Of a stretch of 64,000 bases of DNA, positions 2,001-45,075 are shown piece after piece. The notes under the pieces are model-generated. The model searched no databases and had not been told where the DNA came from. It worked only from the letters and a program-made list of their open reading frames with translations. Where the stretch lies: contig JAFULF010000025.1 in assembly GCA_017483225.1 (NCBI GenBank), forward strand, positions 110,469 through 174,468. Reading direction: 5' to 3'. A program made the translations under genes and the position numbers. Source of the stretch: Alistipes sp. (lineage in GTDB: Bacteria; Bacteroidota; Bacteroidia; Bacteroidales; Rikenellaceae). How positions within the stretch are numbered: the stretch's first letter is position 1; each line of letters begins with the position of its first letter.

Positions 2001-2038
2001 AATAGGAGGTGGGGGGGGGTAACTACCTTATATACAAG

Positions 2039-2069
2039 GAGTTCGGCGGTGGCGTCGAACTCTTTTTTT
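2039..2069 (+). terminator. Rho-independent terminator of the rhaD-GDPD unit
   Basis: A 10-pair stem (2039-2048 with 2053-2062, one G-U pair) with a GTGG loop is followed by seven Ts (2063-2069). It lies just past the GDPD stop. The opposite-strand DprA-like gene ends at 2068 within the T-run, so the two convergent units share it. Confidence 0.85.
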
Positions 2070-3381: not shown

Positions 3382-5152
3382 AGTAACTAAACAACGCTTT
3401 AAGTTTTTCTATTTTATCTTTACCTTCATAGGTCAATGTACTATGAAAGCTTAACAACTTTGCCTTTACATCACTAAATTGATATGAGTTCATCACTTGA
3501 GTATTCAATCGAGACATTGTTATAAAATCCACTTCATCATTAGGGATAAGCGATAAGTCGTATGGTTTAATCCACGAGTTAGTTGCATTGTTACACGCTT
3601 GTGCATATTCATATTGATTATAATCATCTAAAATATCAATAAACAAAGGGGTGTAATCTGTAGTACTATTAATCGTCCAGCCCTGATTATTTAAATAGTT
3701 TGGCATCATCCAATATTTTTCATTCATATACACATATTGATATAGACTGCTATACGCTCCCAGTTCCGTGTATTCCAATTTCGTTAAATGCCACCCCACA
3801 CAATCAGCCCAACTCTCACTATACTTTAGGCCTTCCGCAATATATGCTAATAACATATTAGCAGATGCATTATACCAATGAGAAGAATGTCCTAATTCGT
3901 GCGATACTGTATTATAAATCACATCTGTTGTATAGCAAGTCCCGTTTTCGGACTTACCATAAACCCTAATATCTGGGAAAATATTCATTCCCAATTCAAG
4001 CCAATAATCCCCACTCTTTTTAGGATTATTCTTATGCAAATAGGCGATTTGTGTTTTCCTCCATCCCGGGCGTGATACACCCTCAGTATTTCCACATAGC
4101 ATTCTGTATGCTGCCCTATGAATAGTAGCAAACCTCAATGACTTCAGTCCATTATCCTGGATTAACAAATCCCAATACTCTCTTTGTTTTGGGCCTTTAT
4201 AATAGGCTTGACAAATTGCCCCATCTCTAATATTCCATTTACTATTTTGGGCATTCTCCCCCTCCCACACAATCGTATACCTTGCAGGTCTACGAAATGT
4301 TCCATCACACACAAAATCTCCAACACTATCAGTTATGCCCTTTCTTGTTGTAAACCAGCGGGTTGCCCTCACCTTGACCCCGACTATTGGAACGTAGCCT
4401 TGGACAATATCATCATACGCTGATATATTCCCAGAAGGAGTCCATATTGTTGTATTAGTACTATTAACACTTGCATTATTATCATTCAAGTTAACTCCAA
4501 GAACCTCATTATAATGTCCAGTTATCTTCATGGCTTCATCCACTAAAGCCTCCGCAACAATTGCGCTCATTCCAATGGGTTGAATTGGAGAAAGTGACAT
4601 AGTCTCCAAGTCAGACCCACCTTCAATATCGTCAACAATATCATCTTCTGGGATATAAAGTTTCTCTAGAACAGTATACGCAATACTTAATGTATCACAC
4701 ATATTTTCCCATTTCTCAGCTTCTATTGATGCATATTGAAAAGTTGGCAACGAATCCACTATAGTAGGATCATGGTATGATACTCCGCTAATAATCTCCC
4801 TATCTAATGGATATTCATAAAATATGATAGAAGTATCTTGTAAATGTAATCGATTTAATTCGTCACTGGAAGAAGGGGCAAAGCGCACATAATAATGAGA
4901 GGTACTAATCTCTGGAATAACTAATCCTGGCGTTACTTCCATCAACGTCAATCTTGCTTCCTCCATAACCTCTAATGCATACGGGTTTGCTAATTGTTCT
5001 CCAAGGACCATTTGACCATCCGAGATTGAATCCGCAGGTTCAACTCTCGTTACCTTTTGCATATTCTGAGATTTTACAACAATTATATCATGATCTTTCA
5101 CACAAGAAGTACAGGCTATCAACAATAAAATTAGCCAAATATATTTTTTCAT
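3374..5152 (-). CDS. Predicted zinc metalloprotease lipoprotein
   Basis: A 592-residue exported protein with lipoprotein signal MKKYIWLILLLIACTSC (lipid-accepting Cys17). The key motif is HELGH at 418-422 (zinc-binding HExxH), followed by SESWAD near 445-450, where Glu446 is a good candidate third ligand of a gluzincin-type site. This suggests a surface-anchored metalloprotease; the exact family is not clear to me. The N-terminal ~200 residues are acidic and carry no known domain that I can name. The RBS-like AAAGGA lies about 10 bases before the ATG. A small lipoprotein gene overlaps its 3' end by 8 bases. The pair is clearly AT-richer than its neighbours, which hints at horizontal acquisition. 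Confidence 0.75.
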   Translation of the reverse strand: MKKYIWLILLLIACTSCVKDHDIIVVKSQNMQKVTRVEPADSISDGQMVLGEQLANPYALEVMEEARLTLMEVTPGLVIPEISTSHYYVRFAPSSSDELNRLHLQDTSIIFYEYPLDREIISGVSYHDPTIVDSLPTFQYASIEAEKWENMCDTLSIAYTVLEKLYIPEDDIVDDIEGGSDLETMSLSPIQPIGMSAIVAEALVDEAMKITGHYNEVLGVNLNDNNASVNSTNTTIWTPSGNISAYDDIVQGYVPIVGVKVRATRWFTTRKGITDSVGDFVCDGTFRRPARYTIVWEGENAQNSKWNIRDGAICQAYYKGPKQREYWDLLIQDNGLKSLRFATIHRAAYRMLCGNTEGVSRPGWRKTQIAYLHKNNPKKSGDYWLELGMNIFPDIRVYGKSENGTCYTTDVIYNTVSHELGHSSHWYNASANMLLAYIAEGLKYSESWADCVGWHLTKLEYTELGAYSSLYQYVYMNEKYWMMPNYLNNQGWTINSTTDYTPLFIDILDDYNQYEYAQACNNATNSWIKPYDLSLIPNDEVDFITMSRLNTQVMNSYQFSDVKAKLLSFHSTLTYEGKDKIEKLKALFSYYE

Positions 5153-5203
5153 AATTCTGTTTTCCTTTATAAATAGTTATTAATTAATACTATTTTACAG
5201 GGT

Positions 5204-5229
5204 TAACAAGTGTGAAGCCACACTTGTTA
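5204..5229. repeat. 11-pair inverted repeat upstream of the metalloprotease gene
   Basis: Bases 5204-5214 and 5219-5229 form a perfect 11-pair stem around a 4-base loop (AAGC), about 50 bases upstream of the metalloprotease start. There is no T-run, so an operator or mRNA leader hairpin is more likely than a terminator. The rest of 5153-5545 is AT-rich and holds no convincing gene. Confidence 0.5.
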
Positions 5230-5457
5230 CAACAATTGCACGCTCACCCTATCGAGCGTATAATGATACAAGATTATGTGGCAAGTTTCGAGATGCGTCT
5301 TTAATTTTAGATTACGAATTTCTTGACGCATACATAGATAATCAACACGGCATAGGTATCGTTGACTATACTCCAAAAGATATTTGAGAAATATTTTCAT
5401 CCGTAGTAGCAATAAAAATTTCCCCACCTTTCGCAAATATAAATATAAAATACGAGA

Positions 5458-5520
5458 AAAACAATAAAAATAATAAAAAACAAACGAGGTTACCAATATT
5501 ATAATTATTAGGCAACCTCG
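5458..5520 (-). terminator. Terminator of the pdxJ-cca unit
   Basis: Read on the minus strand, a 7-pair stem (5514-5520 with 5485-5491) is followed by a T-rich tract. It lies 25 bases past the stop of the CCA-adding enzyme gene. The loop is long (22 bases), so confidence is moderate. Confidence 0.6.
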
Positions 5521-5545
5521 CTTATCTTATATTGGATTTAATCTT

Positions 5546-6946
5546 TTAGCGCTTTTTTAGGCCGTACTCCTCGGTCAGCTGCTCCAAGAGGGTGTGGGCA
5601 GCGGTGTAGTCGTTGGGTATCTCGCCGTCAAGGATGGCGTTCTTGATGCGCTCCTTGATGTCGCCGAGGATGCGGCAAGGGGTGATGTCGTACTCCTGCA
5701 TTATCACGTCGCCCGTAATCGGCGGCTGGAAGTTGCGGATGCGGTCACGCTCCTCCAAATCCTTCATCTTGTGGCGCACGAGGGCGAAATTTTCGAGGAA
5801 TCGCTTCACCTTCTGCTCGATGCCCGAGGTGATGTCCGCCTCGCAGAGCGCCATCAACGCCTCCACGTCGTCGCCCGCCTCGAAGAGCAGACGGCGCACG
5901 GCGGAGTCGGTGACGATATCCTCTGCCAGAATTATAGGGCGCAGGTGGAGAAAGACCAGCTTCTGCACGAAGCGCATAGGCTCGCCCAGCGGCAGTTTCA
6001 GACGGCGGAATATCGACGGCACCATCTTGCTGCCCAGCACTTCGTGCCCGTGGAATGTCCACCCGACCTTCGGGTCGTAGGCCTTCGTGAGCGGCTTGGC
6101 GATGTCGTGCATAACGGCCACCCAGCGCAGCCACAAATCGTCACTACGGCGTGCCACGTTGTCCAGTACTTTGAGCGTGTGCTTGAAGTTGTCCTTATGT
6201 GCGTGCGCACCTCGTCGCTCCACGCCACAGAGGTTGTGCAGTTCGGGAAATATCAGTTCCAGAAGCCCCGTGAGTTCGAGCAACTCGAAGCCCATAGAGG
6301 GCACGGGCGAGGCTACTATCTTGTTCAGCTCGACGATGATACGCTCCTGCGACACTATCTTGATGCGCTCCCTGTTGCGCTTTATTGCCTCGAAGGTCTC
6401 GTCGTCGAGGTTGAAGCCGAGTTGCGTGGCGAAGCGTATGCCACGCATCATTCGCAAGGGGTCGTCCGAGAAGGTTATGTCGGGGTCGCACGGCGTGCGG
6501 ATGATGCAATCCTCCAAGTCGTACATACCCTCGAAGGGGTCTATCAGCTCGCCGAAGGTTGCGCCGTTGAGCGACCACGCCATAGCGTTTATCGTGAAGT
6601 CACGTCGTCGCTGGTCATCCTCTATCGTGCCATCCTCGACGTGCGGCTTGCGGGAGTCGGGTGAGTAGGACTCCTTGCGGGCCCCGACGAACTCCACCTC
6701 CATCCCGTCGGCACGCAACATCGCCGTACCGAAGCGTTTGAATACCGACACGTTGGTTCGCAGCTCACGCCCCAGCGCCTCGGCAATCTCTATGCCGCTG
6801 CCTACCACCACCACGTCTATATCCGTACACTTGCGACGGAGGTAGTAGTCACGCACGTAGCCGCCGATGACGAAGGCCTGCACGCCTCGCTCATCGACAA
6901 GGCGTGAGATACGCTTGAATATGGGTAACGAGAGCGGATTATTCAC
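5546..6946 (-). CDS. cca: tRNA nucleotidyltransferase / poly(A) polymerase family with HD domain
   Basis: Class II nucleotidyltransferase that adds or repairs the CCA end of tRNA (the poly(A) polymerase role is a family alternative). I place the start at the GTG at 6946-6944: it follows an AGAAAGG ribosome site and overlaps the pdxJ stop, whereas longer frames run through pdxJ. The product is 466 residues. Seen: GGYVRD (28-33), DID catalytic pair (Asp42, Asp44), RRRDFTINA (113-121), a C-terminal HD domain with His256, HD (280-281) and HGHE (299-302). The HD domain gives phosphohydrolase activity in related enzymes. The 3-base overlap with pdxJ indicates translational coupling. Confidence 0.92.
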   Translation of the reverse strand: MNNPLSLPIFKRISRLVDERGVQAFVIGGYVRDYYLRRKCTDIDVVVVGSGIEIAEALGRELRTNVSVFKRFGTAMLRADGMEVEFVGARKESYSPDSRKPHVEDGTIEDDQRRRDFTINAMAWSLNGATFGELIDPFEGMYDLEDCIIRTPCDPDITFSDDPLRMMRGIRFATQLGFNLDDETFEAIKRNRERIKIVSQERIIVELNKIVASPVPSMGFELLELTGLLELIFPELHNLCGVERRGAHAHKDNFKHTLKVLDNVARRSDDLWLRWVAVMHDIAKPLTKAYDPKVGWTFHGHEVLGSKMVPSIFRRLKLPLGEPMRFVQKLVFLHLRPIILAEDIVTDSAVRRLLFEAGDDVEALMALCEADITSGIEQKVKRFLENFALVRHKMKDLEERDRIRNFQPPITGDVIMQEYDITPCRILGDIKERIKNAILDGEIPNDYTAAHTLLEQLTEEYGLKKR

Positions 6947-7667
6947 TTTTTGCCTTTCTGATTTCACGTTGGTACATCTGCACGGTGTTCTCCAAGCCAT
7001 AGTAGAGGGCATCGCTGATAAGGGCGTGGCCGATAGAGACCTCGTCGCACCACGGGATGCGCTCGCAGAAGTAGGCGAGATTTTCGAGCGAGAGGTCGTG
7101 GCCTCCATTCAGCCCCAGACCGCACTCGCAAGCCGCCTCGGCAGCCGCCACATAAGGGGCGATAGCAGCCTCACGGTCAGCGGCATAGCCCGCAGCATAT
7201 GCCTCCGTATAGAGCTCCACACGGTCGGCACCGCACGCCTTCGCACCACGCACCATCTCGGGGTCGGGATTGACGAAAATCGAGACACGGATGCCGTAGC
7301 GGTGGAAGAGGTCGCACATCGAGGTCAGGAACTCTCGGTGGGCGATGGTGTTCCAGCCGGCATTGGAGGTGATTGCATCCGGCGCATCGGGCACAAGGGT
7401 CACCTGTGCAGGCACCACCTCGCAGACCAAATCGACGAAACTGTCCACGGGGTTGCCCTCGATGTTCAGCTCGGTGGCGATGACACGTTTCAGATTACGC
7501 ACGTCGTCGTAACGAATGTGACGTGCATCGGGTCGTGGATGCACCGTGATTCCGTCGGCTCCGAAGCCCTCGATGGCAAGCGCTGCCTTGACCACATCGG
7601 GCAGATTGCCGCCACGAGAGTTGCGAATTACGGCAATCTTATTGATATTTACGCTAAGTTTTGTCAT
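6939..7667 (-). CDS. pdxJ: Pyridoxine 5'-phosphate synthase
   Basis: Last step of DXP-dependent vitamin B6 synthesis: condensation of 3-amino-2-oxopropyl phosphate with deoxyxylulose 5-phosphate in the cytoplasm. The product is 242 residues from the ATG at 7667 (MTKLSVNINKIA), the conserved family N-terminus; an upstream in-frame codon would add an unsupported 15-residue tail. Diagnostic motif ITVHPRPDARHI lies at 40-51, and the barrel continues with GLNGGHDLS and the C-terminal SIGHALISDAL segment. The gene is divergent from nadK and shares a 72-base intergenic region with it. Its stop overlaps the cca start. Confidence 0.95.
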   Translation of the reverse strand: MTKLSVNINKIAVIRNSRGGNLPDVVKAALAIEGFGADGITVHPRPDARHIRYDDVRNLKRVIATELNIEGNPVDSFVDLVCEVVPAQVTLVPDAPDAITSNAGWNTIAHREFLTSMCDLFHRYGIRVSIFVNPDPEMVRGAKACGADRVELYTEAYAAGYAADREAAIAPYVAAAEAACECGLGLNGGHDLSLENLAYFCERIPWCDEVSIGHALISDALYYGLENTVQMYQREIRKAKSE

Positions 7668-7696
7668 AAGATTTCTATTTATAAAGGTAAATATAT

Positions 7697-7704
7697 TACC
7701 TTTG
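7697..7704 (+). promoter_or_regulatory. -7 promoter element (TACCTTTG) before nadK
   Basis: TACCTTTG matches the Bacteroidota -7 consensus TAnnTTTG and sits 35 bases before the nadK ATG. No good TTTG is present at the -33 position, so only the -7 half is supported. Confidence 0.45.
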
Positions 7705-7739
7705 TACCACAAAGTTAAGAATTTTCCACGAGATTGGCA

Positions 7740-8615
7740 ATGAAGATAGCACTTTTTTCAAGACCACGAGCAGAACTTCGCATCGACGACATCGACCGCA
7801 TCTTCTCGGCGATAGAGAAGTGGGGGATGGATTATACGGTAAATGAGGAGTTTGCAGAGTCGGTATCGACCCTGACAGGCCGCAATATCCCTGCCACAAA
7901 TCGCTATGGGCAGGAGTTGGGCGAGCAGCCTGCCGATACGGTTATGGTATGTTATGGTGGCGACGGAACGCTCCTCGAAGGTGTCCACCGCCTCGGCGGG
8001 CAGGCGATACCTGTCGTGGGTATCAACTCCGGACATCTTGGGTTCCTTGCGCTGGCACCACGCTCGGAGATTGCCGAGGTCTTCGCCGCCATTGCCGAGT
8101 CGAGACTCTCGGTCGAGGCTCGCTCGATGCTCTCGGTCGAGGGCGAGATAGATGGCTCGCAGCAGAGGCTCTACGCTCTGAATGAGGTGGCTGTGCAGCG
8201 TCTTGGTGCAACGATGATTTCGGTCGATATACGCATCGACGGTAAGCATACCTCCTCGACAAATGGCGACGGCGTAATCCTCTCCACACCAACGGGTTCC
8301 ACCGCCTACTCGCTCAGTGCCGGAGGGCCGATAATAGCCCCGACGTGCCGCTGCACGGTGCTGACACCGCTCTCGCCGCACAACCTGACGATGCGGCCTG
8401 TTGTGGTGCCCGATACGAGCCTCGTGGAGTTGCATATTCACACCCGCAGCAACATAGCCTCCATCTCGGTCGATAATCGCACCTTCGAGGTTAAGGATGG
8501 GGCGGTGCTGCGCATAAAGAGTGCCGAGCATACCATTTTGCTCGCCGTGCCACACAATATTTCGTTTTATGACACGTTACGAAATAAGATGATGTGGGGC
8601 GTGGATGTCCGATAA
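7740..8615 (+). CDS. nadK: NAD kinase
   Basis: Phosphorylates NAD+ to NADP+ in the cytoplasm. The 291-residue product carries GGDGT (73-77, catalytic Asp75), NSGHLGFL (96-103) and the C-terminal STPTGSTAYSLSAGGPI loop that binds NAD. I chose the ATG at 7740 rather than the in-frame TTG two codons earlier. It is divergent from pdxJ and followed by uppS on the same strand after about 95 bases, a mix of cofactor and envelope genes without an obvious shared pathway. Confidence 0.95.
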   Translation: MKIALFSRPRAELRIDDIDRIFSAIEKWGMDYTVNEEFAESVSTLTGRNIPATNRYGQELGEQPADTVMVCYGGDGTLLEGVHRLGGQAIPVVGINSGHLGFLALAPRSEIAEVFAAIAESRLSVEARSMLSVEGEIDGSQQRLYALNEVAVQRLGATMISVDIRIDGKHTSSTNGDGVILSTPTGSTAYSLSAGGPIIAPTCRCTVLTPLSPHNLTMRPVVVPDTSLVELHIHTRSNIASISVDNRTFEVKDGAVLRIKSAEHTILLAVPHNISFYDTLRNKMMWGVDVR

Positions 8616-8710
8616 GAGGGGACTTTACGCTACAATTTCGCATTGTCGAGGCATAAACTCGTAAGAAAAAGCGTGTAATTCGAAAAAAAGAGATATATTT
8701 GCGTGTTTAT

Positions 8711-9418
8711 ATGAACCAGAAACGCATACCGGCTCACGTTGCAATCATAATGGATGGCAATGGTCGCTGGGCAGAGGCCCACGGCAAAGAGCGCTACGAG
8801 GGACATATCGAGGGTGTTCACTCTGTGAAAAAGTGCATCAAGGCTGCACTTCGAAACGGGGTGAAGTATCTCACGTTATACGCCTTCTCGACCGAGAACT
8901 GGGGTCGCCCCGCCGAGGAGGTCAATGCGTTGATGGAGCTCTTCTGCAAGAGCGTTATGGATAATACGGCAGAGCTTGCAGGGCAGGGTGTACGTGTGCG
9001 GATGATTGGCCGTCGTGACCGCTTCTCGGAGCGTGTGTGCCACCATCTGAACGCCATAGAGGAGCAGACGGCAGCGGGCGAAAAGCTTACGCTCGTGCTC
9101 GCCTTCGACTACTCGTCACGTGACGAGATAAAGAGTGCCGTGCGGAGTATCGCTGCGGCAGTGGCAGAGGGACGACTCTCGGTGGAGCAGATTTCGGAGC
9201 AGACAATCTCCGATGCACTCTACACGGCAGAGATTCCCGACCCCGATTTTATCGTGCGCACAAGCGGCGAGTGCCGTTTGAGCAACTTTTTGCTTTGGCA
9301 GGCATCCTACGCCGAGATGTATTTCCCGAGTGTGATGTGGCCGGAGTTTGATGAGAATGAGTTTGACAAGGCTATGAACGTCTATGCGGAGCGTAACCGC
9401 CGATATGGTAAGTTGTAG
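8711..9418 (+). CDS. uppS: Undecaprenyl diphosphate synthase (isoprenyl transferase)
   Basis: Makes the C55 lipid carrier used for peptidoglycan and for the capsule repeat units encoded further along. The 235-residue product starts HVAIIMDGNGRWA (residues 9-21, catalytic Asp15) and ends with VRTSGE, LSNFLLWQ and YAEMYFPS. I chose the ATG at 8711; an earlier in-frame TTG (8699) overlaps a TATATTTG -7-like element at 8694-8701. If that element is a real promoter, the mRNA would be nearly leaderless. bamA follows 27 bases after the stop. Confidence 0.95.
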   Translation: MNQKRIPAHVAIIMDGNGRWAEAHGKERYEGHIEGVHSVKKCIKAALRNGVKYLTLYAFSTENWGRPAEEVNALMELFCKSVMDNTAELAGQGVRVRMIGRRDRFSERVCHHLNAIEEQTAAGEKLTLVLAFDYSSRDEIKSAVRSIAAAVAEGRLSVEQISEQTISDALYTAEIPDPDFIVRTSGECRLSNFLLWQASYAEMYFPSVMWPEFDENEFDKAMNVYAERNRRYGKL

Positions 9419-9445
9419 CCAAAACAGATAAGAGAGTTTTTTTTG

Positions 9446-12151
9446 ATGAAGAAATTTTTGAGGATTTTATTGCTGGGCGTAGCGGGCATCTGCCTGCTCT
9501 GCGGCAATATATATGCACAGACGGTACAGGCTACCGATGCGCAGCCTGCCACGGAGCAGGAGCCGGCGCATACGTTGAGCGAGAAGGAGCGCAAGGCGTT
9601 GGATAAGGAGAACCGCAAGAAGGCTCGTGAGGAGTTGCGAGCATCGTTGCGCAACGGCTCCACGACACCGCAACGCCGTGGTCCGATAACCATCACCGAG
9701 AATCCGGAGAGCAACTTCACCATCCCTGAGGGTGCGGAGTTCCTCGACGGTAGCCGTCAGCAGAAGTATTACCTGCGCAACGTCAATATCCACGGTGTGA
9801 AGTACCTCAATCACGACATCCTTCGCTCGGCATCGGGATTGGTGCCCGGCGACTCGGTATATCTGCCCGGCTCGTTCATCCAGAATGCCGCCAACCGCCT
9901 CTGGTCGCAGCGCTACTTCGCCGACATCAAGATTGGTGCGACGATTGAGGGCGACAGCGTAGATTTGGAGGTGATGCTCAAAGAGCGGCCACGAGTAATC
10001 AACTGGGCAATCACGGGCGTACCGAAGGGCAAGGCTGCCGACCTGCTCACTGACCTCAAACTCAAACGAGGCAACGAACTCTCGGACTACATCATCGACA
10101 AGAACAAGAAGCTCATACAGAAGCACTTCGGCGAGAAGGGTTTTCGTAATTGCGAGGTAGAGGCGAAGATAGAGAACGATACGGTAATCACGCAGGGCGT
10201 GAACGTCACCTTCCACGTGACGAAGAACCCTCGTGTGCGCATCAGCGAGATAACCTTCTCGGGTAACAACTCCTTCGAGGATAAGCGTCTGGCCCGCACC
10301 TTCAAGAAGACCCACAAGACAAGCTGGATGTTCTGGCAGAACACCAAGTTCAACGAGGTGGAGTATGCCGAGGATAAGGATTTGCTCATCGACTTCTACA
10401 ACTCGAAGGGTTATCGTAATGCCAACATCGTCGGCGACTCGGTCTATGTCATCGACCAGAAGCGACTCGGTATCCATATCGACGTGGAGGAGGGCAACAA
10501 GTACTACATCCGCAACGTGAATTGGATTGGTAACTCGAAGTTCGATACCGAGCAGCTCAAACAACTGCTCTCCGTGAAGCGTGGCGACGTATATGACAAG
10601 AAGTCAATCCACAAGCGTCTGGGTATAGGCAAGGAGCAGAATCCTGACGATATGTCAATCCTGACGCTCTACCAGAACGATGGTTATCTCACCTCGCAGA
10701 TTGAGCCGGATGAGGTTATCGTAGGTGCCGACTCGCTCGACCTCGAAATCAAGGTCTTTGAGGGTAAGCAGTTCACAATCAATAACATCGGCATCTCGGG
10801 AAATATGCGTGTGGATGACGAGGTTATCCGTCGAGAGCTCTACACCCGTCCAGGCGAGTTGTACAACCGAGGCCTGCTGATGCAGTCCATACGTACTCTG
10901 GCGGCGATGCAGCACTTCAACGAGGAGGCTATTATGCCGGATATCAAGCTCGTGCAGGGTGCCTCCGACCTCGTGGATATCAACTGGCCATTGGAGGAGA
11001 AGGCCTCCGACCAGTTCAACATCGCAGCGGGTTGGGGTTCGGGTACCTTTGTCGGCTCGGTGGGTATCACGCTCAACAACCTCTCCATCCGCAACTTCTT
11101 CAAGAAGGGTGCTTGGCGACCTTACCCTATGGGACAGAATCAGCGTCTGTCTATCTCCGGACAGACCAACGGTACATATTACAAGGCGTTGTCTATCAGC
11201 TTCTCCGACCCGTGGTTGGGTGGCAAGAAGCCTAACTCGCTCTCCATCTCGGGACATATCTCCGAGACCAACGATGCCTATTACGTATGGCAGACACCGA
11301 CGACCTTCTTCCGCTCGTATGGTTTGGCGGCAGGTCTGGGTAAGCGACTCTCGTGGCCGGACCCTTACTTCCAATTCTACGGTGAGTTGGCATACCAGCG
11401 TTACGGCTTGAAGGGCTACACCTCCTTCATTATGTCCGACGGTAATGCGAATATGCTCTCGTTGCGACTCGTGCTCTCACGTAACTCCACCGACCAGCCT
11501 ATCTACCCTCGTCGAGGCTCGGATATCTCACTCTCGGTGCAGGTTACACCTCCATTCTCGGCGTGGGACGGAAAGAACTATGCCGACAAGAGTATGGACC
11601 AGCAGACACGCTACCGTTGGATTGAGTTCCACAAGTGGCAGTTCAAGGCGCAGTGGTTCCAAGCCCTCACACCGAACAACAACCTCGTGCTGATGGCAAA
11701 GATGGAGATGGGATTCCTCGGCCACTATAACAAGAACAAGATTTCGCCATTCGAGCGTTTCCAGGTCGGTGGCGACGGTATGACGGGATATAATATATAT
11801 GGTGTGGATATCATCTCGCTGCGTGGTTACGAGGATGGTGAGCTGGACCCTGCCGGCAGCTCGTACTCCGTGGCCTACAATAAATATACGTTGGAGTTGC
11901 GCTATCCTATCATCTTGAAGCCGTCGTCGCAGATATATGTGCTCGGATTCCTCGAAGCGGGTAACGGATTCTCGTCGTGGAAGGAGTTCTCGCCATTCAA
12001 GGTTAAGCGCTCGGCGGGTGTCGGCGTGAGATTGTACCTGCCTATCGTGGGTATGCTCGGCATCGACTGGGGTTGGGGATTCGACCCACCTGCGGGAGAG
12101 ACCAAGCGCAGCGGAAGCCAATTCCACTTCGTCATCGGCCAAAGTTTCTAA
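9446..12151 (+). CDS. bamA: Outer membrane protein assembly factor BamA (Omp85)
   Basis: Central pore of the BAM machine that folds beta-barrel proteins into the outer membrane. The 901-residue precursor has a signal peptide (MKKFLRILLLGVAGICLLC.., cleaved near AQ), a charged linker rich in Glu, Lys and Arg, a series of POTRA repeats (roughly residues 105-530) and a C-terminal barrel. The family LRGY motif (792-795) corresponds to the conserved VRGF/Y of the barrel and the protein ends in Phe (HFVIGQSF). I use the ATG at 9446 after an in-frame TTG. The two ompH genes follow, the usual BamA-Skp pairing. Confidence 0.95.
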   Translation: MKKFLRILLLGVAGICLLCGNIYAQTVQATDAQPATEQEPAHTLSEKERKALDKENRKKAREELRASLRNGSTTPQRRGPITITENPESNFTIPEGAEFLDGSRQQKYYLRNVNIHGVKYLNHDILRSASGLVPGDSVYLPGSFIQNAANRLWSQRYFADIKIGATIEGDSVDLEVMLKERPRVINWAITGVPKGKAADLLTDLKLKRGNELSDYIIDKNKKLIQKHFGEKGFRNCEVEAKIENDTVITQGVNVTFHVTKNPRVRISEITFSGNNSFEDKRLARTFKKTHKTSWMFWQNTKFNEVEYAEDKDLLIDFYNSKGYRNANIVGDSVYVIDQKRLGIHIDVEEGNKYYIRNVNWIGNSKFDTEQLKQLLSVKRGDVYDKKSIHKRLGIGKEQNPDDMSILTLYQNDGYLTSQIEPDEVIVGADSLDLEIKVFEGKQFTINNIGISGNMRVDDEVIRRELYTRPGELYNRGLLMQSIRTLAAMQHFNEEAIMPDIKLVQGASDLVDINWPLEEKASDQFNIAAGWGSGTFVGSVGITLNNLSIRNFFKKGAWRPYPMGQNQRLSISGQTNGTYYKALSISFSDPWLGGKKPNSLSISGHISETNDAYYVWQTPTTFFRSYGLAAGLGKRLSWPDPYFQFYGELAYQRYGLKGYTSFIMSDGNANMLSLRLVLSRNSTDQPIYPRRGSDISLSVQVTPPFSAWDGKNYADKSMDQQTRYRWIEFHKWQFKAQWFQALTPNNNLVLMAKMEMGFLGHYNKNKISPFERFQVGGDGMTGYNIYGVDIISLRGYEDGELDPAGSSYSVAYNKYTLELRYPIILKPSSQIYVLGFLEAGNGFSSWKEFSPFKVKRSAGVGVRLYLPIVGMLGIDWGWGFDPPAGETKRSGSQFHFVIGQSF

Positions 12152-12266
12152 CCCGGACAGCGTTTGGCAACGTATTTGAAGCAGAGCAATATATTGAAGC
12201 CAAACACCGTTTATTCTACAAGGAGTTGCTAATAAGAAATTTTCCGATACAATAAAATAGAGAGTT

Positions 12267-12776
12267 ATGAAACGTATAGTTGCAACATTAGCTTTGATTA
12301 TTGCCTTTGCCGGCAGTTGCTTTGCGCAGAAGTATATTGTGGTGGATAGCGAGAAGATTTTCAAGTCGCTCGACGAGTATAATAGTGCGATGACTACGCT
12401 CGACAACCTTGCCAAGGATTACCAGAACAAGGTGGATGCCAAGTATAGCGAGATAGAGTCGCTCTACAACGCCTACGTGTCGCAGAAGGCATCGCTCTCC
12501 ACGCAGTCACGCACGCAGTACGAGCAGGCAATCCTTGCCAAGGAGCAGGCGGCTGCGGAGTATCAGGAGTCGGTGTTTGGCAACGACGGCGTGATTATGA
12601 AGAAGCGCATAGAGCTGATTCAGCCGGTGCAGCGACGTGTATTTGCCGCTATTGAGCAGTATGCCAAGGAGCAGGGATGCGATATGGTGCTTGACAAGGC
12701 CTCCAACGCCACGATGCTCTACTGCGCCGAGGGTGTGGACCACACGCAGCAGGTTATCGAGATTTTGAAGAAGTAA
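12267..12776 (+). CDS. OmpH/Skp family periplasmic chaperone (first copy)
   Basis: A 169-residue exported protein with signal MKRIVATLALIIAFAGSCFAQ, then KYIVVDSEKIFKSL, the typical OmpH N-terminal strand (..VD.EKIF.SL). A long Ala, Glu and Gln-rich coiled coil occupies about residues 45-115. Skp-type chaperones hold unfolded outer membrane proteins for BamA, and this gene follows bamA by 115 bases with a second copy 27 bases downstream. The copies differ clearly in sequence, so this is an old duplication, as is common in Bacteroidota. Confidence 0.9.
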   Translation: MKRIVATLALIIAFAGSCFAQKYIVVDSEKIFKSLDEYNSAMTTLDNLAKDYQNKVDAKYSEIESLYNAYVSQKASLSTQSRTQYEQAILAKEQAAAEYQESVFGNDGVIMKKRIELIQPVQRRVFAAIEQYAKEQGCDMVLDKASNATMLYCAEGVDHTQQVIEILKK

Positions 12777-12803
12777 GATTTATAATAACAATAAAACAGT
12801 TAA

Positions 12804-13343
12804 ATGCAGATGAAAAAGATTATTAAACTAACCCTCGTGCTGGCGATGATGCTGGGTGCGACTACGGTGTCGGCTCAGAAGTTGGCACGCATCAACACGC
12901 AGGAGGTCTTCGCACTGATGCCGGAGACTGCCGAGATGCAGAAGAATTTGGAGGCTTTCGGTAAGGACCTTCAAGAGCAGATTGAGCAGATTCAGGTGGA
13001 GTTCAACAACAAGTATGCCGAGTTCCAGAAGAATCAGGCTACGATGGCGGAGTCTATCAAGCAGATGAAGCAGCAGGAGTTGGAGCAGTTGCAGCAGCGT
13101 TACAGCGAGTTCCAGCAGATTGCACAGCAGGACTTCCAGAAGAAACAGCAGGAGTTGGCTACCCCTATTCAGGAGAAGCTCTCCGCAGCGATTGGCAAGG
13201 TAGCAAAGGCGGGTGGTTATGCCGTGGTATTCGACACCTCGATACCTACAATGGCATATATTGACGAGGCGCAGGCTACGGACCTCGCTCCGGCAGTGAA
13301 GAAGGAGCTGGGTATCAGCGAGAGCGCTACACCTGTACAATAG
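12804..13343 (+). CDS. OmpH/Skp family periplasmic chaperone (second copy)
   Basis: A 179-residue exported protein with signal peptide (..KKIIKLTLVLAMMLGATTVSAQ) and the OmpH pattern KLARINTQEVFALMPE. Residues ~45-130 are a Gln and Glu-rich coiled coil forming the tentacle of the Skp trimer. The start could equally be the second ATG two codons later (12810); no ribosome site separates them. It closes the bamA-ompH-ompH group and is followed by a long perfect hairpin. Confidence 0.9.
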   Translation: MQMKKIIKLTLVLAMMLGATTVSAQKLARINTQEVFALMPETAEMQKNLEAFGKDLQEQIEQIQVEFNNKYAEFQKNQATMAESIKQMKQQELEQLQQRYSEFQQIAQQDFQKKQQELATPIQEKLSAAIGKVAKAGGYAVVFDTSIPTMAYIDEAQATDLAPAVKKELGISESATPVQ

Positions 13344-13357
13344 TGTGACGGATTTGG

Positions 13358-13403
13358 AAACCAATTAGGGCTGTTCTCAACCGAGAACAGCCCTAATTGG
13401 TTT
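13358..13403. terminator. Bidirectional hairpin between ompH and ung
   Basis: A perfect 21-pair stem (13358-13378 with 13383-13403) with AACC loop, ending in AAA/TTT. It lies between the converging ompH and ung genes and probably ends both transcripts. Confidence 0.75.
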
Positions 13404-13439
13404 GTGAGGGTAAACGCAATCGTTACAGCTCTTACGCCC

Positions 13440-14102
13440 TTACCATACAATCGGCTCCTTGCCGATACTTTGCAGGTAGGCATTCGCCTGCGAGAAGTGG
13501 CGTGAGCCGAAGAAACCTCGATATACGGATAGTGGCGAAGGGTGTACGGCTTTGAGTATCAGATTGTTGGTAGGGTCGGCAATGGCACCCTTCTTCTGCG
13601 CATAACTGCCCCAGAGCATATACACCACCCCCTGCTTGCGCTCGGCGATGGCACGCACCACGGCATCGGTGAACTTCTCCCAGCCACGCCCTGCGTGTGA
13701 TGCCGCCTCGTGTGCCCGCACCGTCAGCACGGCATTCAGCAGCAGCACCCCCTGCTCCGCCCAGCGGTCGAGGTTGCCGCTCTGCGGGATAGGCACGCCG
13801 ATATCGCTACTCACCTCCTTGAAGATGTTTTGCAGTGACGGCGGGAATGGTACTCCGTCATTTACCGAGAAGCAGAGGCCGTTGGCCTGCCCCTCGCCGT
13901 GGTATGGGTCTTGGCCGATGATGACGACCTTCAACTTGTCGAGCGGACACTTGTCGAAGGCTCGGAAGATGTTGCCTCCCTGCGGAAAAATCTGGCGTGT
14001 GGCGTACTCCTCACGCACAAAGGAGACCAACTCCTCGAAGTAGGGCTTGTCGAATTCGGGCTGTAATACCTCCCGCCAACTGTCGGCTATACGGACATTC
14101 AT
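13440..14102 (-). CDS. ung: Uracil-DNA glycosylase
   Basis: Removes uracil from DNA in base excision repair. The 220-residue product has the family-1 motifs GQDPYHG (63-69, catalytic Asp65), a Pro-rich PFPPSLQNIFKEV segment, LLLNAVLTV and HPSPLS with the catalytic-loop His near residue 186. It stands alone on the minus strand, converging on ompH and divergent from deoD. Confidence 0.96.
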   Translation of the reverse strand: MNVRIADSWREVLQPEFDKPYFEELVSFVREEYATRQIFPQGGNIFRAFDKCPLDKLKVVIIGQDPYHGEGQANGLCFSVNDGVPFPPSLQNIFKEVSSDIGVPIPQSGNLDRWAEQGVLLLNAVLTVRAHEAASHAGRGWEKFTDAVVRAIAERKQGVVYMLWGSYAQKKGAIADPTNNLILKAVHPSPLSVYRGFFGSRHFSQANAYLQSIGKEPIVW

Positions 14103-14168
14103 AGTGACTCATTTTTGTTTTATAAAAACAAAGATAGCCAAAAGATGCGGATTCCGCAAAAAAATTCA

Positions 14169-14176
14169 TACCTTTG
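14169..14176 (+). promoter_or_regulatory. -7 promoter element (TACCTTTG) before deoD
   Basis: Matches TAnnTTTG and lies 26 bases before the deoD ATG, a usual leader length. No clear -33 match is visible. Confidence 0.5.
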
Positions 14177-14201
14177 TAGTAACCTAAAACAGAGAATTGA
14201 T

Positions 14202-14915
14202 ATGGCTGATTTGACACCTACTCCGCACATCGGAGCGAAGGCCGGCGAGATTGCCGAGCGTGTGATTATGGCGGGCGACCCCCTGCGTGCCAAGTTTATG
14301 GCGGAGCGATACCTCGAAGAGGCTCAACTTGTGAGTCAGGTGCGAGGTATGTACTGCTACACGGGCACCTATAAGGGCAAGCGAGTGACGGTTATGGGTC
14401 ACGGTATGGGCATCTCCTCCATAGGCATCTACACCTTCGAGTTGTTCAACTTCTACGGCGTGAAGCGCATCATCCGCACCGGCTCGGCGGGGGCATACCA
14501 CCCCGACCTGCATATCGGCGACATAGTTATCGCTATGGGTGCCTGCGACAACTCCAACTATGCGGCGCAGTATCGTCTGCCCGGCACCTTTGCCCCTATT
14601 GCCGACTACGCAATGCTGCGTGCGGCGGTGGATAAGGCGGAGGCGATGGGCGTGAACTATCGTGTGGGCAACATCCTCGCCAGCGAGATATTCTACAACG
14701 ACGATGCGGAGGCGTGGAAGCGCTGGCAGCGTATGGGCGTGCTGGCGGTGGAGATGGAGGCCTCGGCACTCTATATGAACGCTGCACGCAGTGGCAACGA
14801 GGCACTCTGCATCTGCACCATCTCCGACTCGCTCGTCACGCACGAGGAGACTACTGCCGAGCAGCGAGAGAAGACCTTTACCGATATGATGGAGATAGCC
14901 TTTGAGATTATATAG
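14202..14915 (+). CDS. deoD: Purine-nucleoside phosphorylase (DeoD type)
   Basis: Phosphorolysis of purine (deoxy)nucleosides in salvage. The 237-residue product begins at ATG 14202 (MADLTPTPHIGAKAGEIAE). An upstream in-frame ATG is rejected because it would place the -7 promoter element inside the gene. Seen: VIMAGDPLRAK, GHGMGISSIGIY, RTGSAGAY and the substrate-binding VEMEASALY. The three nuclease genes follow on the same strand after 48 bases, so extracytoplasmic nucleic acid breakdown could feed nucleoside salvage; that functional link is inference. Confidence 0.95.
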   Translation: MADLTPTPHIGAKAGEIAERVIMAGDPLRAKFMAERYLEEAQLVSQVRGMYCYTGTYKGKRVTVMGHGMGISSIGIYTFELFNFYGVKRIIRTGSAGAYHPDLHIGDIVIAMGACDNSNYAAQYRLPGTFAPIADYAMLRAAVDKAEAMGVNYRVGNILASEIFYNDDAEAWKRWQRMGVLAVEMEASALYMNAARSGNEALCICTISDSLVTHEETTAEQREKTFTDMMEIAFEII

Positions 14916-14963
14916 GATTCACGTAACCCTGCACTGAACCGACAACTAAACCTACCGCATAAG

Positions 14964-15746
14964 ATGAGAAAGATGATTTTTGCACTGCTTGGCGTGGTGC
15001 TCTGCACGAGCAATGCTATGGCTTGGGGAGTGGTTGGCCACGAGACGGTTATCGCCGTGGCGCAGCGTCACCTCACCGAGCGCACGAAGGCCAACATCGC
15101 CAAGTATATGAACTACGACCTGAAAAAGGATGCCGTGTGGATGGATAAGCATCGCTGGGATAAGGAGATTGCATACACGACCCACTACCACACCTACGCC
15201 TGTGATGCGCAGGGCAACTACGACCCGAATCCACGTGTGTCGAAGGGTGGCGATGTGGTCTATGCGTTGCATCTGGCCGACTACAACCTCTCGCAGTATG
15301 AGCGTCTGACCGACAGCGCCGTGGTGATGAACCTGCGTATGATTATCCACTTTATGGGCGATATGCACTGCCCTGTTCACGCACACCCTGATGGTCGTGC
15401 AACGGCGTGGCCGTGCGAGTTCAACGGCAAGCCGTGGAAGAAGTTCCACGCCATCTACGACCGTATTCCCGAGATGCTCTATGGCGAGGATGTGGATGTG
15501 GATGCGCTCGCCGAGCAGCTCGATAACTGCAAGAGGGGCGAAATCAAGAAGATTGTAGGCGGCACGCTGCTCGACTGGGCGAATGATAGCACAGCCGAGA
15601 ACCTCACCATCTACGACATCAACGCCTTCCACACCAAGCAGGTGGCACCCGACACGGTGGAGCGCTCCCGTGCGCTCATCTCTCGCCAGCTGCGCAATGC
15701 CGGCTATCGTCTGGCGCACTCGCTAAACCTCTATTTCGACAGATAA
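14964..15746 (+). CDS. S1/P1-type zinc nuclease, copy 1
   Basis: Exported nuclease of the S1/P1 family (single-strand nucleic acid and 3'-nucleotide hydrolysis with a three-zinc centre). Signal cleavage after AMA exposes Trp21, the N-terminal residue that ligates zinc in this family, followed by GVVGHE with His26 at the P1-His6 position. A second ligand cluster, HFMGDMHCPVH, lies near residue 130. The length (260) is typical. It is the first of three tandem homologues separated by 1 and 17 bases, surely co-transcribed. Confidence 0.88.
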   Translation: MRKMIFALLGVVLCTSNAMAWGVVGHETVIAVAQRHLTERTKANIAKYMNYDLKKDAVWMDKHRWDKEIAYTTHYHTYACDAQGNYDPNPRVSKGGDVVYALHLADYNLSQYERLTDSAVVMNLRMIIHFMGDMHCPVHAHPDGRATAWPCEFNGKPWKKFHAIYDRIPEMLYGEDVDVDALAEQLDNCKRGEIKKIVGGTLLDWANDSTAENLTIYDINAFHTKQVAPDTVERSRALISRQLRNAGYRLAHSLNLYFDR

Positions 15747-15747
15747 T

Positions 15748-16527
15748 ATGAAGAAGAGCCTACTTATACTTTCGATGTTGCTCCTCTGCACGCAGAGCGT
15801 GTGGGCGTGGGGCAAGCATGGCCACGAGATTGTCGTGGAGGTGGCAAAGCGTCATCTCACCGAGCGTGCGAAGGCCAACATCGCCCGCTATATGCCTTAC
15901 GACATAACCACCGAGGCACTATGGATGGATAAGCACCGCAGAGATGCGGAGATTGAATATACGACGCATTGGCACGGTGCCGGCTATGACAAGCAGAAGC
16001 GCTACCTGCCGACGGCTAAGCTCGCCAAAGGTGGTGATGTGGTGCGTGCGCTGCAACTTGTCGAGTACAACCTCTCGCACTACGAGCGCCTGACCGACAG
16101 CGCCGTGGTGATGAACCTGCGTATGGTGCTCCACTTTGTGGGCGATATGCACTGCCCGACACACTCGCTGCCCGATGGCGTGAAGGTGCGCTGGGACTGC
16201 ACCATAAAGGGCAAGGAGAGCAACTTCCACTCCCTCTACGACCGTATGCCTGCTACTCTGTATGGCAAGAAGACTCCGCCGTCGCAGGTGGCGGCAACGC
16301 TCGACAACTGCAAGAAGGACGAAATCAAGAGCATCGTGAGCGGCAGCATTATCGACTGGGCCGACGACTGCTTCGAGCGCAACTCGGCAATCTTCGACAT
16401 TAACCCGTTTGGTACGCCGGTGCTCGACCCGCAGACCATCGAGAAGTCACGTGCGCTGGTTGATGTGCAGCTGCGCAATGCCGGCTATCGTCTGGCGGCA
16501 AAACTCAACAAATATTTCGACAAATAA
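15748..16527 (+). CDS. S1/P1-type zinc nuclease, copy 2
   Basis: Second tandem copy, 259 residues, starting one base after the stop of copy 1. Signal peptide ..CTQSVWA is followed by Trp21 and GKHGHE (His26). The central HFVGDMHCPTH zinc-ligand cluster and the C-terminal LRNAGYRLA segment are shared with the sisters, but the middle part diverges (KVRWDCTIKGKESNFHSLYD in place of a Trp-Pro-Cys-Glu segment). This suggests different substrate preference rather than simple dosage. All zinc-ligand landmarks visible in copy 1 are kept. Confidence 0.88.
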   Translation: MKKSLLILSMLLLCTQSVWAWGKHGHEIVVEVAKRHLTERAKANIARYMPYDITTEALWMDKHRRDAEIEYTTHWHGAGYDKQKRYLPTAKLAKGGDVVRALQLVEYNLSHYERLTDSAVVMNLRMVLHFVGDMHCPTHSLPDGVKVRWDCTIKGKESNFHSLYDRMPATLYGKKTPPSQVAATLDNCKKDEIKSIVSGSIIDWADDCFERNSAIFDINPFGTPVLDPQTIEKSRALVDVQLRNAGYRLAAKLNKYFDK

Positions 16528-39986: not shown

Positions 39987-40108
39987 GTTTTTAGGGGTAA
40001 CTGCTTCCTTAACTTGCGTGCGCCACGATGGTCACATACGCCGAGTATGCTCCCACCGTGGCGTACTCGTTAGCGTTGCATTTACCGCCTAAAAAGCAAA
40101 AAAAAAGT
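39987..40108. repeat. Palindromic intergenic repeat, family 1 (core orientation A)
   Basis: A large imperfect palindrome, from TTTTTAGGGGTAACTGC to TTTACCGCCTAAAAA, with inner arms CGCCACG/CGTGGCG. The 43-base core 40021-40063 is the exact reverse complement of the core at 41662-41704, while the flanks of the two copies are in the same orientation. Confidence 0.8.
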
Positions 40109-41627: not shown

Positions 41628-41746
41628 GTTTTTAGGGGTAACTGCTTCCTTAACTTGCGTTCGCCACGGTGGGAGCATACTCGGCGTATGTGACCATCGT
41701 GGCGTACTCGTTAGCGTTGCATTTACCTCCTAAAAAGCAAAAAAAA
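41628..41746. repeat. Palindromic intergenic repeat, family 1 (core orientation B)
   Basis: Same flanks as the copy at 39987-40108, but the 43-base core (41662-41704) is exactly inverted. Together the two copies flank the small ribosomal protein operon. Confidence 0.8.
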
Positions 41747-42523: not shown

Positions 42524-44422
42524 ATGAAGAAGATATTTGCATCACTATTCGCAATCGCAGCCATCGTGGGTTGCGCACAGAACGATATCGAGGAGATTGC
42601 TCCGAAGATTCCGCTCGAAAAGGGCGTTATGGAGGTGGGCACTGCCGGCGAGGCAGATGATGCCAGCCGTGCTACGTTTGACAAGGCGCTCCAATTCTCG
42701 TGGGAGGCGGGTGACCGTATGGCCGTGCTGCAAGGTTGCACGGGCGCACCGCAGCAGAGCCTCACGCTCACGGGTGGCGAGGGTACGACCAGCGCACGCT
42801 TCCGTAGCGAGGAGTTTGAGTATGTGGCCAACACGACTGCTGCCTTCCACTTCGTATATCCTGCATCGTGCGCCACGCTGACCACCTCGGGGGCAACCGT
42901 TGCGCTCCCTGCGCAGGACGGCGTTTGGAATCCTATCCTTGTGGCTTCGACCGAGCCAACTACTCACGATGCTATCGAGAATGTTGATTTGCAGTCGCTT
43001 ACGGGTTGCCTTGGTATCCGAGTATTCAGCAACAACAAGAGCGACGCTCTCGCAGTCAAGAGCATCTCTGTCAAGGCGGAGAATAACTTCCTCGGCGAGT
43101 TTGTCGGCACGGTGGGCTCCGATGGCAAGATGACCTATACGCCAAATGGCACGACCAACCAGTTTACGGTCAATGTTGCCGATATGGCAAGTGGCGTTAT
43201 CGACAACGAGTACCGCTTCGAGGTGCTGCCTGTTGATGCGGGCGTTGTGACCGTAACCCTCACCGACGAGAACGATAATGTCATCACCCTCTCGACCAGC
43301 GGCAACAAGCTCTTCAAGGCTCACACCATCACACGTATCAACGTGGCGTGGAACCCTACCGTCAGCCTCGGAGGTGTGACTACGTGGTACGAGGAGACCA
43401 TCGCAGGCAAGGAATCGACGCTTAATGGTGGTGATGTGCAGTTCACGGGCGTTACCGCCAATGGTGGCAAGGTTACGCATATTGCTTGGAAATACAACGA
43501 GGGTGAAGCTTGGAACCTGCTCGAACTCAACGATAAGCAGAACCTCAAACTGACGGGTATCGGTAGTGGCACCTACTATGTCTGCGCCGCTATTCAGGCT
43601 CCGGATGGCACCTGGAACTATTCGCCGGAGAGCTATCAGGTTACCGTTACCGCCAAGCCTACCGTGACATATAAGGCACGCTCGACCTACGCCTATAACG
43701 ATGGAACGTCTGTGCGACAGAATGTTCTTGCCGACCGCACCAGCATCATCTACGAGAGCTATACAATCTCGAATAGCGACGACTTTACCAATGCGCTGCT
43801 TAATACCTCGGCCGCAAAGTTCGTCTATGGCTCGTCGGAGTGGGATGCCAACACGGCAGGCACGGTAAATAGTGCGCTCGCTTTGGGGCAATATGGCTGT
43901 TATGTTAAAATTCCGTTCGTAGAAAACAGTGCCGTTTCCCTCGAATCGGAGAATCAGAACATCTACGTTACGGGAGTGCCATATAGTGTAAGTGGCGAAG
44001 GTGTAAGCTCTATTTCGGGATGGACAAATAGCAGTACAACAGATACTGGCAATTACCTCCTGATAAAAGATGGAGGCTCTATAACCTCTCCAAGTCTTTT
44101 CTATGCGAGTACAAATTGTACTTACGACATCGTGTTAAGTTCGTATGTTTATTGCTATCGAGGTTCGTATACTAGTGCAACTTATAGACTGTCAATGCAG
44201 ATGAATCCGTCGATCGGAGCAACTTTTAGCGAGGATTTGTCGGGTGGAATATTATTGGACAATACAACAAGTGGATATAGGTTTGTGGAGAAGACTCTGA
44301 ATACTACATTGAGCCAAAACTCGGGAATCAAGATAAGCACAAGCAAAGTGTCTTCCAGAGGTCTGGCGGTCGTCACTACGCCAGGTATGAATATAGATGT
44401 AATCAGTGTAAGGTATAGATAA
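42524..44422 (+). CDS. Fimbrillin-like surface lipoprotein with switchable C-terminus
   Basis: A 632-residue lipoprotein from ATG 42524 (MKKIFASLFAIAAIVGC, lipid Cys17). The N-terminal region (RATFDKALQFSWEAGDRMAV, FHFVYPAS, LPVDAG..VTLTDE) has the beta-sandwich pattern of Bacteroidales fimbrillin-like proteins. The middle (~295-440) is beta-rich. The C-terminal ~180 residues begin at QYGCYVKIPF (456-465). The gene is GC-rich up to that point and AT-rich after it. The switch coincides with a 31-base inverted repeat shared with the opposite-strand cassette at 44487-45075, so the present C-terminus is probably one of two alternatives. A small peptide gene precedes it. Confidence 0.85.
   Translation: MKKIFASLFAIAAIVGCAQNDIEEIAPKIPLEKGVMEVGTAGEADDASRATFDKALQFSWEAGDRMAVLQGCTGAPQQSLTLTGGEGTTSARFRSEEFEYVANTTAAFHFVYPASCATLTTSGATVALPAQDGVWNPILVASTEPTTHDAIENVDLQSLTGCLGIRVFSNNKSDALAVKSISVKAENNFLGEFVGTVGSDGKMTYTPNGTTNQFTVNVADMASGVIDNEYRFEVLPVDAGVVTVTLTDENDNVITLSTSGNKLFKAHTITRINVAWNPTVSLGGVTTWYEETIAGKESTLNGGDVQFTGVTANGGKVTHIAWKYNEGEAWNLLELNDKQNLKLTGIGSGTYYVCAAIQAPDGTWNYSPESYQVTVTAKPTVTYKARSTYAYNDGTSVRQNVLADRTSIIYESYTISNSDDFTNALLNTSAAKFVYGSSEWDANTAGTVNSALALGQYGCYVKIPFVENSAVSLESENQNIYVTGVPYSVSGEGVSSISGWTNSSTTDTGNYLLIKDGGSITSPSLFYASTNCTYDIVLSSYVYCYRGSYTSATYRLSMQMNPSIGATFSEDLSGGILLDNTTSGYRFVEKTLNTTLSQNSGIKISTSKVSSRGLAVVTTPGMNIDVISVRYR
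43888..43918 (+). repeat. 31-base inverted repeat, left copy (recombination site candidate)
   Basis: Exact reverse complement of 45045-45075. It encodes QYGCYVKIPF within the lipoprotein gene. Outside the 31 bases the two sequences diverge at once at the DNA level. Confidence 0.95.
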
Positions 44423-44434
44423 CCTCGTTACACA

Positions 44435-44473
44435 AACGCAATCAGCCGACCTTTTGGGTCGGCTGATTGCGTT
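44435..44473. terminator. 17-pair perfect hairpin shared by the two alternative 3' ends
   Basis: 44435-44451 pairs with 44457-44473 around TTTTG. It lies between the stop of the expressed 3' end (44422) and that of the silent 3' end (44487), so it can serve as terminator in either orientation of the segment. Confidence 0.8.
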
Positions 44474-44486
44474 ATAATCGAGCGAG

Positions 44487-45075
44487 TTAGTTGCCGCTGT
44501 ATTGAATACGTATCTTATTGATATATTGGTCGTGAATCTTGAAATATTTTGAATAGACAAGGCACGGCTTACTCTCCGTAAGACCAAATACATTTGCGCT
44601 ATCAACATAGTCTGCGTTGCTGTCAGCATCTACACTATATGAGGCTGTAATATATACTCCACTGGTATTTTGAGCCGCCGAACTCTTTGTTCCTGTCTCT
44701 ATATAGGCATTGCGATACCATACATAATCTCTTGGGCCGATAAAATTGTAATCTACATTACGCGACGTTGCAGCGATGGATGTTGTCACGTTTACCGGCT
44801 CTATTGCCTTTGCAATATAGAATGTAGGAGAGTATATTGCGACATTTCGCTCCGATGCAGTTGTGCTTGTATCCAGTCGCAGGTACGATGTGCTACTAAG
44901 AGTCGGAGTGTATATTCCCACATAGGAGTTACTGCTCCACGACCATCCATCGTAACTGCCCTCCATAAAGTTGGCCTCGCAAGGGATTCCTGTTACATAT
45001 ATGTTTTGGGTCTGTGATTTTAATGTAACGCCATTTGCATTTATGAACGGAATTTTAACATAACAGCCATATTGC
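44487..45075 (-). pseudogene. Silent alternative C-terminal cassette of the surface lipoprotein
   Basis: On the minus strand a frame resembling the lipoprotein's own C-terminus begins exactly at the inverted repeat: QYGCYVKIPFINANGVTLKS, then QNIYVTGIP, then 185 residues after IPF in all, ending INKIRIQYSGN. The expressed version has IPF, then QNIYVTGVP and ends IDVISVRYR. The bases upstream (to 45149) are open but do not resemble the protein, and there is no signal peptide, ribosome site or promoter. It is a 3' end without a gene, in the same codon phase as the expressed copy, so an inversion between the repeats would fuse it in frame. Confidence 0.85.
45045..45075 (-). repeat. 31-base inverted repeat, right copy
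   Basis: Reverse complement of 43888-43918, with no mismatch. Together they bound a 1.19-kb segment. Confidence 0.95.

Follow-up and report, generated by a model that had tools for sequence, protein, structure and literature searches.

The lipoprotein gene considered here runs through one arm of an inverted repeat, which raises the question of whether inversion of the enclosed segment exchanges the C-terminal part of the protein and, if so, which recombinase would be responsible. The gene lies in a stretch of 64,000 nt (the window), corresponding to bases 110469-174468 of contig C16 from the Alistipes sp. source genome G000. The G000 assembly comprises 1.86 Mb in 42 contigs and is about 90% complete. 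The locus is found amid housekeeping genes, with ribosomal protein S6 upstream and an MlaE-type permease, an ABC ATPase and GAPDH downstream. Comparisons were made in a sample of 180 same-genus genomes, identified by G-numbers. Seven genomes (G000, G071, G073, G081, G101, G133 and G134) contain the arrangement described below and are referred to as switch genomes. We consider it likely that this arrangement is a site-specific inversion switch, in which XerC and XerD would recombine modified dif sites situated inside coding sequence.

Organization of the lipoprotein locus

The features of the locus, numbered from the first base of the window, are as follows.

42524..44422, plus strand: lipoprotein gene, an open frame of 632 aa with a lipobox-like start (MKKIFASLFAIAAIVGC), the lipobox being judged by eye
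42524..43888, plus strand: constant N-terminal part, 455 codons, GC 0.557
43889..44422, plus strand: fused C-terminal cassette, 177 codons from QYGCYVK, GC 0.413, identified by profile match
44487..45074, minus strand: silent (orphan) C-terminal cassette, 195 codons from QYGCYVK, open to the stop, GC 0.416, identified by profile match
43888..43918, plus strand: left arm of the perfect 31-bp inverted repeat
45045..45075, minus strand: right arm of the perfect 31-bp inverted repeat
44435..44473, no strand assigned: hairpin between the converging cassettes, from folding and from a self match on the other strand within the same genome

The 31-bp inverted repeat given in the preliminary description of this DNA proved to be exact. 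When up to three mismatches were allowed, the sequence occurred at only two places in the assembly. Each of 30 first-order Markov shuffles of the window gave a longest inverted repeat (within 3 kb) of 12-16 bp, and the real window contains this 31-bp repeat and a separate 43-bp one (40021-40063 and 41662-41704). The latter belongs to two repeat copies (40001-40100 and 41640-41720) that flank the S6 operon region; the outer sequence is common to both copies, and the inner 43 bp form a near-palindrome that is inverted between them.

The left copy of the 31-bp repeat is situated at codon 456 of the lipoprotein gene, and the right copy opens the 195-codon frame on the minus strand. As had been described, the two 3′ gene ends are in opposite orientation with both repeat copies in the same codon phase, so by simple arithmetic inversion would give a protein of 455 + 195 = 650 aa in place of the 632-aa product. 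The shift in base composition at the repeat was also reproduced, as the GC values listed above indicate for both cassettes. Two other points required revision. DNA similarity was said to stop at the edge of the repeat; this is correct for the outer side, where identity is 10-50% per bin beyond the core, but on the inner side similarity tapers, giving arms of 93 nt at 74% identity. The orphan cassette was said to lack both a start and a signal. No signal peptide was recognized by eye, but an in-frame ATG ATG directly precedes the repeat and doubles as the outer end of the dif-like XerC arm considered below, and the list of open reading frames opens the orphan at an upstream TTG (220 aa). A promoter scan of the orphan strand, of a type unsuited to Bacteroidota, yielded weak sigma-70-like matches no better than such scans usually yield.

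Folding predicted a hairpin at the place between the converging cassettes in all seven of the loci folded, and the hairpin at 44435..44473 is likely to function as a shared bidirectional terminator. Neither the lipoprotein nor the swapped domain has a known family in Pfam or NCBIfam, and PDB sequence matches for either one were too weak for use. A domain profile search of G000 found no cassettes beyond this pair; two relatives have three cassettes. An origin of the locus from a mobile element was considered and rejected, as there was no plasmid match for the locus and a peptide-pattern scan found no viral relative of the orphan cassette. The site pattern itself matched two viral contigs, with one site in each.

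Resemblance of the repeat to dif

What the preliminary description overlooked is that the repeat, judged by its sequence, is a dif-like Xer site. This resemblance points to the housekeeping recombinases XerC and XerD rather than to a dedicated serine or tyrosine invertase. The common core, AATA-TGNNTG-TTATGTTAA, follows the dif layout of an XerC arm, a six-base centre and an XerD arm, and the complete site consists of an 11-bp arm, a 6-bp centre and an 11-bp arm, with an XerD arm of the dif type. The two sites of the locus and the probable dif of the same genome read as follows.

43883..43910, plus strand: dif-like 28-bp site in the gene, TTGGGGCAATA TGGCTG TTATGTTAAAA
45053..45080, minus strand: dif-like 28-bp site at the orphan cassette, ATGATGCAATA TGGCTG TTATGTTAAAA
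Probable dif of G000: ATGATGCAATA TGTATA TTATGTTAAAT

The orphan site agrees with the probable dif of its own genome at 11 of 11 positions of the XerC arm and 10 of 11 positions of the XerD arm, and the centres differ. In the gene copies the inner four or five bases of the XerC arm are of the dif type, and those further out are coding bases (T, T or G, GGG, G or A, C). When scored with a dif matrix, the outer XerC arm was poor in the gene copies as well as in several orphan copies. The matrix was assembled from 28 of 30 non-switch sites, two (L118 and L132) being left out as likely to match by chance. The pattern used to find these sites was derived from the switch; scores over the core are consequently circular, and information comes only from the outer arm and from part of the centre. 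The codons over the core are improbable given each gene's own codon usage (P from 1e-4 to 1e-2), suggesting that the DNA sequence is kept beyond what the peptide needs.

The proposed mechanism relies on XerC and XerD, the tyrosine recombinases of chromosome dimer resolution at dif. They would recombine two inverted dif-like sites, one inside the lipoprotein gene and the other heading a silent, oppositely oriented C-terminal cassette. Inversion would keep the reading frame, with Q-Y-x-C-Y-V-K spanning the site, such that the fixed signal peptide and N-terminal domains would gain a different C-terminal domain. We infer that the swapped domain is exposed and that its exchange would alter binding or antigenicity.

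The centres of the gene site and the silent site of the same genome agree in eight of nine comparisons (six pairs plus two third cassettes), G133 being the exception, and they differ between genomes (TGGCTG, TGATTG twice, TGACTG twice, TGTATG and TGTGTG). As the centres agree between partners and differ from that of dif (TGGCTG versus TGTATA), the pair should recombine mutually and not with dif. A more specific proposal is that XerCD, controlled by FtsK during division, inverts diverged dif copies in a surface-protein gene, which would tie surface switching to chromosome segregation, and that private central hexamers bar crossing with dif; this proposal is tentative and, in our estimation, rather doubtful.

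The cassettes could also be exchanged slowly between the repeats, either by gene conversion or by RecA-dependent recombination, in which case the process would not be site-specific. Exact repeats of 31 bp in G000 and 43 bp in G081, as well as the similarity that runs on inside the arms, would suit such an exchange. However, exact identity extends over just 19-23 bp in four of the six pairs, which is short for homologous recombination, and it is confined to the dif-like core with sharp outer edges: the six gene/orphan pairs are 100% identical over the 19-bp core and 16-50% identical in the ten bases just outside. Homologous exchange is thus a highly improbable account of the cassettes, and recombination at a dif-like site is preferred.

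A scan with AATATGNNNNTTATGTTAA gave matches in 31 of the 180 same-genus genomes. A separate dif-type site was found in all seven switch genomes and in 24 of the 173 others, a few of which may be chance matches; the association between dif-type site and switch (Fisher, 2e-6) is uncorrected for kinship and uses a pattern taken from the switch. The dif-type matches lie outside ORFs of at least 200 aa in 27 of 31 rows, with G167 counted twice and L118 and L132 included. GC skew was followed along contig C4 of G002 by sampling 20 stretches, each of 20 kb, together with a 14-kb piece containing the site. Beyond the site, which lies at 686.7 kb, the skew kept its positive sign and became negative no sooner than about 840-895 kb; a local change of sign was seen at the site itself. 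By sequence, copy number and position, these separate sites are probably dif. A proteobacterial profile has been used to predict dif in 14 Bacteroidetes strains (PMC3025954), and a published table of Acinetobacter Xer sites (PMC12907356) includes TTATGTTAAAT, the right arm TTATGTTAAA(T), among its right half-sites.

The gene recA lies about 5 kb from the probable dif of G000. A second dif of this genome on contig C36 was rejected, since the C36 stretch is 100% identical to contig C28 over 9,926 bp; C36 repeats about 9.9 kb of C28 around the probable dif (L084 and L085) and is therefore a redundant contig in the assembly. A possible tracking of each genome's dif by position 7 of the XerC arm (C or T) was dropped, as it was not significant with seven genomes.

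Related loci and possible traces of past inversion

A DNA search of 60 relatives did not find the segment. Searches with the protein and the repeat identified other genomes with the same architecture and the same core. Unfused cassettes beside dif-like sites are present in seven of the 180 same-genus genomes, and six of these seven have an exact site pair. In these six (G000, G071, G073, G081, G101 and G134), two copies with a TGNNTG centre are inverted about 1.1-1.2 kb apart, one inside a lipoprotein gene and the other at a silent cassette. G133, which shares the architecture, has one intact and one decayed site, the decayed copy being that in the gene. The recurrence of this architecture supports the switch of the C-terminus by inversion that had been suggested from the window. 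Third cassettes, each with a one-mismatch site and the same centre, are found in G081 (L058:8113, 187 aa from Y) and G071 (L101:9985, 182 aa). A scan of species genomes with CAATATGNNTGTTATGTTAA yielded 12 stretches, comprising six switch relatives and six single sites, each in another organism.

The swapped domain is present in 52 of the 180 genomes. Among these 52, unfused copies occur in the seven site-bearing genomes and in one weak case, G108; the association of unfused cassette with switch site (Fisher, 6e-8) has G108 as its exception and is uncorrected for the kinship of the genomes. In G108, which has no dif-like switch site, the swapped domain is matched weakly by a 149-aa frame (C2:4768-5169) that is not fused to a long gene. 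In G030 a homologue of the lipoprotein is 48% identical over residues 1-537 and keeps the peptide motif (AYSCYVK) with other codons; this genome has neither the switch site nor a second, unfused match to the domain. A separate observation concerns G065, where short repeat modules, both inverted and direct (GTCATTGCGAGG..., GTCATCCCGAGGAGCG...), are densely arrayed over positions 2022-15786 of locus L050 (C9:34000-50000).

The silent frames are open from the site to the stop in nine of nine cassettes. Values of dN/dS were 0.11, 0.16, 0.18 and 0.26 in four cassette pairs, the value of 0.18 being that of a silent-silent pair, with dS saturated (>2) in these comparisons. From these data the silent cassettes are apparently under purifying selection.

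G071, G133 and G081 share an orthologous locus with nusB on the orphan side, the gene being named in G081 and assigned in the others by DNA alignment. The silent cassette of G071 is 74% identical to the fused cassette of G133 over 177 aa, and the fused cassette of G081 is 61% identical to the silent cassette of G133 over 186 aa. Both of these cross-species matches are on opposite DNA strands relative to the syntenic flanks. The opposite orientation, which the preliminary description had proposed to look for in related genomes, was therefore found at one orthologous locus, between species, in two cases. Such opposite states are the expected trace of past inversions and suggest that these took place, although cassette replacement could mimic the pattern. 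We infer that inversion may be ongoing.

It might be argued that the locus in this strain is a frozen relic of a past inversion or duplication that no longer switches. The decay of the gene site in G133 indicates that switches can freeze, and XerC is missing from the G000 assembly. In G000 itself, however, the two arms agree at all 31 bp and the silent cassette keeps an open frame of 195 codons, and we give little credence to a relic in this genome.

Candidate recombinases and comparison with known systems

A recombinase linked to the locus was sought with PF00589 and PF00239, and neither had a match on the window contig. This fits the suggestion that the enzyme acts from elsewhere. NCBIfam scores set apart one XerD-like and one XerC-like protein. 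All six XerC-like proteins scored 289-296 bits against a curated cut-off of 335, and the XerD-like proteins scored 319-337 bits against a cut-off of 329.6, with two above it. Both proteins are encoded in five of the seven switch genomes (G073, G081, G101, G133 and G134). XerC was not detected in the approximately 90% complete assembly of G000, and XerD was not found in G071 (92% complete), where the NCBIfam scan covered the best of eight PF00589 matches, the XerC-like one.

The segment could instead be inverted by a dedicated invertase encoded elsewhere (Tsr-like, a serine invertase or a mobile-element integrase), its likeness to dif being incidental. Dedicated invertases are the rule in Bacteroidales (PMC12632263), and the absence of XerC from the G000 assembly would also be accommodated. 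Serine recombinases with PF00239 are present in G081, G133 and G134, and G000 has three further tyrosine recombinases, one of which adjoins a type I specificity gene. On the other side, PF00239 is absent from G000, G071, G073 and G101, such that a serine invertase was sought and rejected in G000. G073 has just two PF00589 proteins, one XerD-like and one XerC-like, and G101 has the same two plus one sub-cutoff fragment; these two assemblies, each 86-87% complete, thus lack clear PF00589 or PF00239 proteins besides the Xer-like pair. The arms of the orphan site, moreover, match the genome's own dif. We consider a dedicated invertase unlikely, and XerCD remain the best-supported candidates for the enzyme of the switch. 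The tyrosine recombinase near the start of contig C41 in G000 (C41:1-3301, L002, 148-684 and 920-1846) is situated beside a type I restriction specificity-type gene. This is the usual setting of a specificity-gene shuffling system.

The likeness to XerCD/dif users, including Acinetobacter dif/pdif modules and dif-integrating phages, is in the 28-bp site with 11-bp arms and a 6-bp centre, and XerC- and XerD-like proteins are also encoded in switch genomes. In contrast to those systems, the sites here are inverted and within coding sequence, so that the predicted outcome is a domain swap rather than resolution, integration or module transfer. The term ‘phase variation’ is absent from an Xer review (PMC5357621).

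Inversion at short inverted repeats by Xer-like enzymes switches surface proteins at Ureaplasma mba and UU172 and at Mycoplasma vpma and vsa (PMC2268961, PMC3599477), and the vsa locus of M. pulmonis combines a constant 5′ portion with silent 3′ ends (PMC2268961). The present locus likewise has a fixed N-terminal part and alternative silent C-terminal parts, which inversion would join, as the opposite states seen in different species suggest. In Ureaplasma the repeats at which inversion occurs were bound by XerC and the probable dif site by a second protein, CodV (PMC3599477), and the vpma locus carries its own xer1 (PMC2268961). Here, unlike in either case, the repeat itself is dif-like and the window contig has no PF00589 match.

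Reversible inversion at surface loci is also known in Bacteroidales, the order to which this genome belongs (PMC12632263); invertible loci of the order include those of Mpi/Hin-type serine invertases and of Tsr tyrosine recombinases, as well as within-gene inversions. The Mpi serine invertase switch would differ in its enzyme class, PF00239 being absent from four of the seven switch genomes, and Bacteroidales invertible promoters probably differ in what is inverted: the segment here consists of two coding ends plus a hairpin, with weak promoter-like matches, and would swap a coding end. Chanin's 2024 paper is said to deal with within-gene inversions. Shufflons are characterized by sfx sites and a linked Rci recombinase. 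Like the shufflon of plasmid R64, the present system would exchange C-terminal cassettes by inversion, with a third cassette in two relatives, but no Rci-type recombinase was found linked to it on the window contig.

Exchange of a C-terminal part by inversion is therefore already known. What is probably new is the placement of a dif-like site within coding sequence and the probable use of housekeeping recombinases as the enzyme; among the titles and abstract openings listed from the open-licence literature, none describes a dif-like inversion switch in Bacteroidota. If this interpretation is correct, surface variation would be possible without a dedicated invertase, an in-frame copy of dif in a gene being sufficient, and domain-swapping inversion would join the known uses of Xer sites. 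It would also provide a sequence rule for finding switches elsewhere, namely a modified dif with a private centre common to the partners, and would make coupling of surface switching to chromosome segregation testable.
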